Shown: in pieces, positions 24,017 to 61,031 of the stretch | Position numbering within the stretch: the first letter of the stretch is position 1 | Layout of the letters: each line of letters opens with the position of its first letter | NCBI GenBank assembly: GCA_015065085.1 | Contig: SVQW01000012.1 | Coordinates: 1-64,000 of the forward strand | Source of the DNA: Oscillospiraceae bacterium | GTDB lineage: Bacteria > Bacillota > Clostridia > Oscillospirales > SIG627 | Length of the DNA: 64,000 nucleotides | Direction of reading: 5' to 3' | Translations under genes and position numbers: made by a program | Notes under the pieces: model-generated | Told to the model about the DNA's origin: nothing | Databases searched by the model: none | What the model saw: the letters and a program-made list of their open reading frames with translations, nothing else

Positions 24017-24044
24017 TAACAGAGCGCAGAAATGCGCTCTGTTA
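24017..24044 (+). terminator. Terminator hairpin, proximal copy at element site 1
   Basis: TAACAGAGCGCA-GAAA-TGCGCTCTGTTA, a perfect stem-loop without T-run, followed directly by the element end AGACTG. Upstream CAGTCT (24011-24016) can extend the stem with that AGACTG. The same hairpin with small loop changes recurs beyond the element at 24276. Confidence 0.85.
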
Positions 24045-24275
24045 AGACTGTCGAGAAAGTCGTGATACCGCAACGGAAATAATTCATTACAAAAAACAGA
24101 AATAAAGCAAAAAATACTTTAACAGCAGGCGATACATCGAATATCACCTGCTGTTTGTCGCTTTTTGCCGATTCAAGCCTTATCGTACCTTTGTACGCCG
24201 ACAGGCTTTAATCGGCAAAATATCCCTGACTTTTCGAAAGTCTTTCAGTGTGTCGACAGGTTTATCGACACACTG
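24045..24275 (+). mobile_element. Terminator-associated multi-hairpin element, copy 1
   Basis: A 231-bp non-coding element, reverse complement of the copies at 56741 and 60770. From the gene side it has the end AGACTGTCGA, an AT-rich stretch, hairpin AACAGCAGGCGATA/TATCACCTGCTGTT (24121-24155), a long nested hairpin centred on CGTACCTTTGTACG, and a terminal hairpin CAGTGTGTCGACA...CACACTG (24246-24275). Its ends form an imperfect inverted repeat of about 10 bp. It holds most of the 456-bp gap 23973-24428. A reading frame crossing it (24165-24377) is not considered a gene. Confidence 0.75.
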
Positions 24276-24309
24276 AACAGAGCGCAGAAAAGCGCTCTGT
24301 TATTTTTTT
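24276..24309 (+). terminator. Terminator hairpin, distal copy with T-run, site 1
   Basis: AACAGAGCGC-AGAAAA-GCGCTCTGTT followed by ATTTTTTT. It is the second copy of the hairpin at 24017; only this copy has the T-run. Confidence 0.85.
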
Positions 24310-54820: not shown

Positions 54821-56710
54821 ATGTGCGGATTTGCAGGACTTTATAAAAAGCTGTCTCTGAGCGAAAAAGACAGGGAAAACATCAAAAACATGTCAAAAGC
54901 AATTGATTACCGCGGTCCCGACCAGGATTGTATAATCACCTATGACAATCTTGCGCTTGCCTTCAGACGTCTCAGCATAATAGACCTCGAAAAAGGTTCC
55001 CAGCCTTTTTGTGGCTTTGACGGACGTTATACTGCGGTGTTCAACGGAGAAATATACAACTACCGTGAGCTTCGTGACGAATTGATGAAAAAAGGCTACA
55101 CCTTTACCACCAACTCTGAAATTGAGGTACTGGTAACGCTGTGTCACGAGCACAAGGGGGACTTTGTAAAGCTTCTCAGAGGAATGTTTGCATACGTGAT
55201 ATTCGACAAACAGGAACAAAAGCTGTTTGCCGCACGCGACCCCTTTGGCATAAAGCCGTTTTACTACCGCGAAAACGGTGAGGGCATAGTATTTTCCTCC
55301 GAGACAAAACCGTTCTTGTTTGATGACAGTATGGGTGGATTTTCAGTTGACAAAGAGATGCTTCAGCACTATCTTTCTTTCCAATACGTGCCCGAGCCCA
55401 ACACCATGAGCCAAAAAATAAAGTCGCTCCCCGCAGGACACAGCATGGTTTGTGATTTTAAATCCGAAAACGCCGTGACGGTGGAAAAGTATTTTGACCC
55501 CATGTTCTGCCCCAAAAAGGAAATAAGCTTTGAGGACAAGGCAAAATTAGTACGCGAAACCGTACTTTCATCCGTCAAGTATCATATGATAAGCGATGTT
55601 GACGTGGGAACGTTCCTTTCCAGCGGCATAGATTCTGCCGTAATAACTGCGGCGGCAAGTAAATTAAACCCGGGTATAAAAGCCTTTACCGTAGCTTTCG
55701 GTGTAAAGGAATATTCCGAAATAGATGCAGCAAGCGAAATTTCAAAGCATCTTGATGTAGAGCACATAAAGCTTGTGGCGGGTGTTGAAGACTTCAAAAA
55801 TGCCTTTGAAAAAGTTGTATATCACCTTGACAACCCCACCGCCGACCCCTCTACCGTTGCAATATATCTGATTTGTCAGGAAGCCGCTCGGCATCTTAAA
55901 GTTGTTTTGTCGGGCGAGGGCTCAGATGAATTGTTCGGTGGATACAAGGTATACGGCTCAGCCATGCCGGCGGCGAGGTTTTATGCTCTGCCCGGCTTTA
56001 TAAAAGAAATCATCTACCGCTTTGCAATGCTTCTGCCCGACAGTGTAAAAGGCAAGGCTTTTATCGAACGCGGTTACACCCCTATCGAAAAGCGTTACAT
56101 CGGAAATGCATTCATATATTCCGAAAAAGAGAAGCCCTCCATACTCAAAACATACGACCCCAACGTAAAATTCTACTCACAGGTGGAGGACATATACAAG
56201 GCATGCAGTCACCTTTCTCCCCCCAACAAAATGCAGTATGTTGATATGAACACCTGGATAAGAGGTGACATTCTTGTAAAGGGCGACCGTCTCAGCATGG
56301 CACATTCACTCGAGGTCCGCGTTCCGTTCCTTGACAAAGAGGTTTTCAAGGTTGCCTCCATGTTATGCGATGAGGATAAGCTTTCCCACGGCACAACAAA
56401 GTATATACTGCGCTATGCCTTCAAGGACATGATAAATGAAGAAACCTTCATGCGTCCCAAGCTGGGCTACCCGGTCCCCGTGTACAAATGGCTCAAAAAC
56501 GAGCTTTATGATTGGGCAAAGGACATTATCGAAAACTCCACTGCCGATGATTATATCGTAAAAGAGGAAGCACTTCGTATGCTCAATGCCCATCGTGACG
56601 GCAGTGAAAACAACTACCGCAAGCTTTGGACAATACTGGTGTTCATCACCTGGTACCGCCTGTACGTTACCGATGCGGAAAAAACCAAAAAAGCAATAAT
56701 GGAAAAATAA
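54821..56710 (+). CDS. asnB: Asparagine synthase (glutamine-hydrolysing)
   Basis: A 629-residue enzyme making asparagine from aspartate, ATP and glutamine. The N-terminal Ntn glutaminase has Cys2 (MCGFAGLYKK) and YRGPDQD; the synthetase domain has the pyrophosphate-binding loop FLSSGIDSAVI and LSGEGSDELFGGYKVY. Length fits the AsnB family. It is followed by a terminator hairpin that contains element copy 2. AAGGAAG precedes the ATG at a slightly long distance. Confidence 0.95.
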   Translation: MCGFAGLYKKLSLSEKDRENIKNMSKAIDYRGPDQDCIITYDNLALAFRRLSIIDLEKGSQPFCGFDGRYTAVFNGEIYNYRELRDELMKKGYTFTTNSEIEVLVTLCHEHKGDFVKLLRGMFAYVIFDKQEQKLFAARDPFGIKPFYYRENGEGIVFSSETKPFLFDDSMGGFSVDKEMLQHYLSFQYVPEPNTMSQKIKSLPAGHSMVCDFKSENAVTVEKYFDPMFCPKKEISFEDKAKLVRETVLSSVKYHMISDVDVGTFLSSGIDSAVITAAASKLNPGIKAFTVAFGVKEYSEIDAASEISKHLDVEHIKLVAGVEDFKNAFEKVVYHLDNPTADPSTVAIYLICQEAARHLKVVLSGEGSDELFGGYKVYGSAMPAARFYALPGFIKEIIYRFAMLLPDSVKGKAFIERGYTPIEKRYIGNAFIYSEKEKPSILKTYDPNVKFYSQVEDIYKACSHLSPPNKMQYVDMNTWIRGDILVKGDRLSMAHSLEVRVPFLDKEVFKVASMLCDEDKLSHGTTKYILRYAFKDMINEETFMRPKLGYPVPVYKWLKNELYDWAKDIIENSTADDYIVKEEALRMLNAHRDGSENNYRKLWTILVFITWYRLYVTDAEKTKKAIMEK

Positions 56711-56713
56711 AAA

Positions 56714-56740
56714 TAAACGGCAAGCGACGCTTGCCGTTTA
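56714..56740. terminator. Terminator hairpin, asnB-side copy at element site 2
   Basis: TAAACGGCAAG-CGACG-CTTGCCGTTTA. Read leftwards it is followed by a long T-run (TTTATTTTTATTTTT), so for the leftward ABC operon it is the distal, functional copy. Confidence 0.85.
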
Positions 56741-56973
56741 CAGTGTGTCGATAAACCTATCGACACACTGTAAGGCTTTCGAAAAGTCAGGGATATTTTG
56801 CTGATTTAAGCCTGTCGGCGTACAAAGGTACGGTAAGGCTTGAAGCGGCAAAAAGCGACAAACAGCAGGTGATATTCGATGTATCACCTGCTGTTAATTT
56901 CTTTTTTGATTTATTTGCGTTTCTTGAAATATAATTTATTTCCGTCGCGGTATCACGACTTTCTCGACAGTCT
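56741..56973 (-). mobile_element. Terminator-associated multi-hairpin element, copy 2
   Basis: A 233-bp element. On this strand it starts with the hairpin CAGTGTGTCGATA-AACC-TATCGACACACTG, then the nested hairpin around CGTACAAAGGTACG, then AACAGCAGGTGATA/TATCACCTGCTGTT (56861-56895), an AT-rich stretch and the end CTCGACAGTCT. Orientation relative to the leftward ABC-binding-protein gene is the same as in copies 1 and 3. It fills nearly all of the 295-bp gap. Confidence 0.78.
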
Positions 56974-56974
56974 G

Positions 56975-57001
56975 TAAACGACAAGTCAAACTTGCCGTTT
57001 A
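56975..57001. terminator. Terminator hairpin, second copy at element site 2
   Basis: TAAACGACAAG-TCAAA-CTTGCCGTTTA: same arms as 56714-56740 except one base, with a different loop. Read rightwards it is followed by TTTTTT. Confidence 0.85.
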
Positions 57002-60741: not shown

Positions 60742-60769
60742 AACCTCTTTTTCTTTTTGAAAAAGAGGT
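60742..60769 (-). terminator. Terminator hairpin, distal copy with T-run, element site 3
   Basis: Read leftwards: ACCTCTTTTTC-AAAAA-GAAAAAGAGGTT followed by TTTT. It is the second copy of the hairpin at 61004-61031. Confidence 0.82.
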
Positions 60770-61003
60770 CAGTGTGTCGATAAACCTATCGACACACTGT
60801 AAGACTTTCGAAAAGACGATGATATTTTGCCGATTTAAGCCTGTTGGCGTACAAAGGTACGGTAAGGCTTGAAGCGGCAAAAAGCGACAAACAGCAGGTG
60901 ATATTCGATGTATCACCTGCTGTTAAATTGTTTTTTGATTTATTTTTTTCTTTTTGAAATATAATTTATTTCCGTCACGGTATCACGTTTTTCTCGACAG
61001 TCT
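60770..61003 (-). mobile_element. Terminator-associated multi-hairpin element, copy 3
   Basis: A 234-bp element, about 90% identical by eye to copy 2 and in the same orientation. Its first 30 bases are identical to those of copy 2, and the central hairpin lies at 60890-60924. It lies between the aldolase gene (upstream, leftward) and the ABC ATPase gene, inside the 380-bp gap 60667-61046, which holds nothing else apart from the flanking hairpins. A reading frame over it (60647-60916, leftward) is not regarded as a gene. Confidence 0.78.
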
Positions 61004-61031
61004 AACCTCTTTTTCTTTTCGAAAAAGAGGT
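61004..61031 (-). terminator. Terminator hairpin, proximal copy at element site 3
   Basis: Twenty-eight bases equal to 60742-60769 except one loop base. It stands right after the aldolase gene and is followed leftwards by AGACTGTCGAG, not by a T-run. Confidence 0.82.

Follow-up and report, generated by a model that had tools for sequence, protein, structure and literature searches.

The repeat that occurs three times in the window (the whole 64,000-nucleotide stretch analysed here) is very probably a MITE, a non-autonomous element that is moved by IS1182-family transposases belonging to a single clade. Its target appears to be recognised by shape and not by sequence, since a whole stem-loop is doubled at sites that are unrelated to one another and since relatives of the element carry an IS1182-family transposase.

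The element and its flanking stem-loops in the window

The preliminary description of this DNA had reported three copies of an element without a gene of its own, each bracketed by one hairpin on both flanks. All three copies were recovered, no gene was found within them and the paired flanks agree at most or nearly all of their bases, as detailed in the following list.

24018..24043, no strand: stem-loop, left copy, site 1 (AACAGAGCGCAGAAATGCGCTCTGTT), a terminator
24044..24275, forward strand: MITE copy 1, 232 bp, ends set at CAG…CTG; the first base is A, normally C
24044..24059, forward strand: terminal repeat at the left end of copy 1, CAGACTGTCGARAAAG, with a mutation in its first base; this 16-nt end is common to full-length IS1182 elements
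24246..24275, forward strand: right terminal hairpin CAGTGTGTCGACAGGTTTATCGACACACTG of copy 1, the outer arm being the element's right end
24276..24301, no strand: stem-loop, right copy, site 1, 25/26 bases equal to the left copy; a T tract comes next
56714..56740, no strand: stem-loop, left copy, site 2
56741..56974, reverse strand: MITE copy 2, 234 bp
56975..57001, no strand: stem-loop, right copy, site 2, 22/27 bases equal to the left copy
60742..60769, no strand: stem-loop, left copy, site 3
60770..61003, reverse strand: MITE copy 3, 234 bp
61004..61031, no strand: stem-loop, right copy, site 3, 27/28 bases equal to the left copy

Site 2 lies between convergent ORFs that end at 56710 and 57006. 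Across the window's genome, 23 long matches to the element were found, which are 82–94% identical to copy 1; a few substitutions between paired flanks are therefore expected, as these are old copies. Fifteen full-length copies have one stem-loop on both sides and a different stem-loop at each site, in line with the earlier observation that the hairpins of the three window sites are unrelated. The other copies are truncated, damaged or tandem.

The element has the usual traits of a MITE, being shorter than 500 bp (220–390 bp in most copies), multicopy and devoid of a transposase gene. An autonomous partner in the same genome, common for MITEs but not strictly defining, is missing here: searches with PF13751 and NF033551 found no IS1182-family transposase in the window's genome, in the one congener compared (G001) or in G040, a genome from another family of the order. 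The copies in the window's genome are thus probably immobile at present. Searches of phage and plasmid collections gave zero matches to the element, and 17 viral contigs that matched the right-hairpin pattern were discarded as chance matches lacking it.

Related elements of 220–390 bp with the same ends (CAGACTGTCGAAAAAG…TCGACACGCTG) were found in many Oscillospirales, and G040 holds a 262–275 bp relative that shares these ends and likewise has duplicated terminators. When one end was searched for as an exact pattern, 5/394 genomes of the order gave matches. With the left-end pattern, at least 114 loci were retrieved from GTDB genomes; the matches listed are mostly from Clostridia and include the isolates Gemmiger formicilis ATCC 27749 and Ructibacterium gallinarum DSM 107454. 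Matches outside the Clostridia (L094, L098, L103, L132, L151 and L163) and one coding match (L104) had no stem-loop and were rejected as chance. Some MITEs are tandem or nested (L015/L016, L021/L023 and L120), and the one at L120 lies directly against another copy's tail hairpin, as though a hairpin of the element itself had been the target. In G040, elements of 381–387 bp (L041/L048 and L064) carry extra sequence near the second interior hairpin.

Doubling of the whole stem-loop

Among 142 distinct left ends, 114 lay no more than 2 nt from the foot of a stem-loop, defined as an inverted repeat with an arm score of at least 7, compared with 14 of 2533 random positions from the same loci. Left ends that failed this criterion were mostly chance coding matches or damaged copies. 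Flank duplication at stem-loops is not a chance occurrence. When 62 pairs of flanks were compared, 47 were direct copies of each other, 5 were best read as inverted and 10 were unrelated, some of the latter reflecting a wrong right-end choice by the script and others being real. The search of related genomes that the preliminary description had suggested thus returned the same hairpin on both flanks in most cases.

The length of the duplication was determined for 54 insertions with CAG/CTG at both ends (40 MITE and 14 full-length IS), and ranged from 20 to 39 bp. The two flank copies were identical in 40 of these 54 insertions (27/40 MITE, 13/14 IS). Further, in 33/54 insertions the outermost bases of the duplicated unit pair with each other and the pairing continues inward to a total of seven pairs or more; most of the others were off by a base or two. 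Sequence upstream of the left stem-loop copy was A-rich in 29/40 MITE cases, and sequence downstream of the right copy was T-rich in 32/40. These data bear out the earlier observation that the duplicated flank is exactly a whole stem-loop, as the unit stops precisely at the element ends. They also support the proposal that the element inserts at terminators and duplicates the stem, with the correction that in a few cases the second copy is inverted or the two flanks are not alike. At L012, L041 and L160 (MITE) and at L237 (IS), one flank is an inverted copy of the other with the loop reversed; at L016 and L148, the element's own terminal hairpin has a flipped loop.

Full-length relatives, the likely autonomous forms, were recovered by a protein search of the order. 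These IS measure about 1.5 kb, end in CAGnnTGTCGAAAAA…TTCGACAnnCTG and are bracketed by matching stem-loops, so that whole-stem-loop duplication is common to the MITE and the full-length IS. The 16-nt end CAGACTGTCGAAAAAG is also present in the IS1182-family elements L214 and L236; at its right end, the MITE has an additional terminal hairpin. Hairpins occur at the IS ends as well, and their stems differ, as in AAAAAGTCCAG…CTGGGCTTTTT and AAAAAGGTCACC…GGTGGCCTTTTT. Genome G207 harbors six identical copies of a 1526-bp IS, five of which are flanked by perfect whole-stem-loop duplications of 20, 21, 22, 26 and 30 bp, while the sixth (L260) has a different stem-loop on each side. The 473-aa transposase P0001 belongs to the IS1182 family (400.1 bits to NF033551, cut-off 270) and matches the DDE transposase domains PF13751, PF05598 and PF01609. 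In a phylogenetic tree, the IS that duplicate stem-loops form one clade with a support of 99/100; the rows L204, L251 and L258 derive from unreliable ORFs with long branches, and L241, labelled 'other', nonetheless carries a duplicated stem-loop. IS1182 elements with ends GGGGCTGTCTC or GGGGCTGTAGC (L089, L204) were dismissed as not of the partner type.

IS1182-family matches were found in 8/26 MITE-bearing genomes. In Ructibacterium (L206) and in G412 (L214, L217 and L220), they lie inside MITE-type ends that touch terminator stem-loops, and the MITE and the CAG-ended IS co-occur in Ructibacterium gallinarum and G412. Since the window's genome and 18/26 MITE genomes show no IS1182-family transposase, it is from shared ends and shared behavior that we infer mobilization of the MITE in trans by the transposase of this clade. 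The interior of the MITE is more conserved and structured than a simple deletion derivative would need, which counts against the explanation preferred here.

Unlike stem-loops on the two sides were seen in several full-length copies (L260 of G207, L233, L236 and L246). Such cases, which also include L113 and L115, need recombination or an adjacent rearrangement, and the flanks of the four full-length copies suggest recombination between copies or adjacent deletions or inversions made by the transposase. A different arrangement was observed in distant IS1182-family elements with ends GGMGCTGTTGACAAA (L249 and L248; weaker in L247 and L254), which sit inside a stem-loop. At L249 and L248 the stem arms are split (13 bp and 7 bp, respectively) and a loop of about 5 nt is found on both sides, a pattern that resembles the loop-duplication outcome drawn for IS1272 and that is absent in other members of the group.

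Interior structure and alternative explanations

An alignment of 21 elements, drawn from many genomes, spans their full length and shows three conserved hairpins, in which compensatory changes occur at 24/36 pairs. Cells changed on both sides of the stems numbered 158, compared with 54 expected by shuffling, and 90.7% of cells were paired vs. 30–42% in controls with slid partners. In the interior hairpins, the stems vary and the loops are conserved. G-U pairs are rare (16 of approximately 671 paired cells), which suggests that the interior structure is kept at the DNA rather than the RNA level. Rfam searches with five copies, at E values of up to 1, revealed no group II intron and no other significant match. 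A sub-threshold match to STnc250 (up to 37 bits, gathering cut-off 42) covers window positions 24059–24160 and the equivalent positions in other copies, i.e., the left half of the element; this likeness is probably superficial.

The conserved interior could be taken to mean that the repeat is mainly a structured regulatory or RNA element (a terminator module, a small RNA or a protein-binding cassette) that was spread by IS1182 and retained for a host function. We consider this unlikely. The 158 compensatory changes (vs. 54 expected) and the weak STnc250 match (37 bits) agree with it, whereas the very patchy distribution (5/394 genomes by the exact end pattern), the fact that no constant gene neighbor was seen, the site-specific nature of the stem-loops and the scarcity of G-U pairs argue against it. 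Movement as RNA, either like a terminator-directed group IIC intron or through reverse transcription for which a nicked terminator provides the primer, would also fit hairpins with covarying stems and the choice of terminators as targets. Group IIC introns, however, are not known to duplicate the stem-loop on insertion; together with the lack of any significant match in Rfam, to group II introns or otherwise, and the fact that the gene found between such ends codes for a DDE transposase and not for a reverse transcriptase, this makes the RNA route highly improbable.

It is equally hard to credit that the terminators were already tandem, or were duplicated by recombination, with the repeat merely lying between them. 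Some copies do stand in tandem arrays (the three loci named above), but the boundaries of the duplicated unit coincide with the element ends and its copies are identical in most MITE and nearly all IS insertions. This explanation is, moreover, largely refuted by IS-free orthologous sites. In four congeners of G207 (G425, G428, G420 and G426), one stem-loop and no IS were found at the insertion point; these congeners are different species, and accordingly their stems no longer have the same sequence. The congener G001 is too diverged to provide exact empty sites for the copies of the window's genome, but orthologues could be read on one side, and several of these have just one terminator. Both outcomes that the preliminary description had named as fatal to it, namely a majority of copies without duplicated flanks or empty sites with two terminators, were thus examined, and its reading was not refuted. 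Finally, a hairpin at one element end and palindromic surroundings would fit a hairpin-recognising single-strand HUH transposase of the IS200/IS605 or REP type. Such transposition is not known to leave a target duplication, whereas long duplications are the rule here and the full-length elements carry an IS1182 transposase, so that an HUH enzyme is a most improbable agent.

Relation to known systems and proposed mechanism

The IS1182 family (NF033551; DDE_Tnp_1_6 and DUF772) supplies the transposase common to the full-length relatives and targets palindromes; the MITE differs in having no gene, and the present clade in having CAG…CTG ends and in doubling the whole stem-loop. Duplications of 0–60 bp are reportedly listed for the family in ISfinder. 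That its members target palindromes and terminators has been described (PMC4923244, PMC5678879), and its member ISPse1 makes a 4-bp duplication (PMC3281130). In staphylococci, IS1272 and TnSha1 target unrelated stem-loops by structure, many of them confirmed transcription terminators (PMC4923244, PMC5678879). IS1272 replaces the stem-loop, all or part of which is removed without duplication (PMC5678879), and TnSha1 likewise removes a portion of its terminator targets (PMC4923244). Whole-stem-loop duplication was depicted by Wan et al. (2017) as a possible pathway b for IS1272 (PMC5678879). The elements described here show the outcome of that pathway, in contrast to IS1272 itself, as the stem-loop is doubled and not replaced. 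The ISMac2-related MITEs of Methanosarcina acetivorans (160–169 bp) are, like the present MITE, short gene-less IS1182-family derivatives, and they have 4-bp or no direct repeats, with no stem-loop duplication described in the parts of that report consulted (PMC3852290).

The preliminary description knew of no element with this behavior. This has to be amended, as the ends are of the IS1182 type, the family targets palindromes and terminators and the doubling of a whole stem-loop had already been drawn. The parallels it offered, terminator-directed group IIC introns and REP-directed insertion sequences, hold for the preference for terminator or palindromic targets; these systems use other enzymes and are not known to duplicate a whole stem-loop.

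In transposition by DDE enzymes, each 3' end of the element is joined to one strand of the target, and a 5'-overhang stagger followed by gap filling gives rise to the target duplication. In the mechanism proposed here, the transposase would recognise the extruded cruciform of a terminator and connect each 3' end of the element to the 5' foot of the stem-loop on one of the two strands. Attack at these positions would make the stagger equal to the length of the stem-loop, matching the observed duplications, and gap filling by the host would yield two full stem-loop copies. The left copy would retain the A tract that precedes it and the right copy the T tract that follows it. Transcription from either side should therefore still meet a terminator, which would make the insertion nearly harmless.

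On a broader reading, it would be by shape that the target and the element alike are recognised. This clade's transposase would then bind DNA stem-loops regardless of sequence, the interior hairpins would be kept as binding sites in cruciform or single-strand DNA, and replacement, whole-stem-loop duplication and loop duplication would all exist, split by transposase clade. Taken as a whole, we regard this as possible but rather doubtful.

The MITE is a variant within the known palindrome-targeting IS1182 family, set apart by the doubling of the whole stem-loop. With most DDE elements, the target duplication is short and its length is fixed. Here, the stem-loop present at the target determines this length (20–39 bp), an indication that an extruded cruciform is cut. 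The 1526-bp IS of G207, which is present in six identical copies, would lend itself well to the biochemistry of a mechanism that has so far only been drawn on paper. The insertions may serve as a natural footprint of the sites of cruciform formation in bacterial genomes, and keeping a terminator for each direction of transcription would offer these elements a nearly harmless route of insertion.
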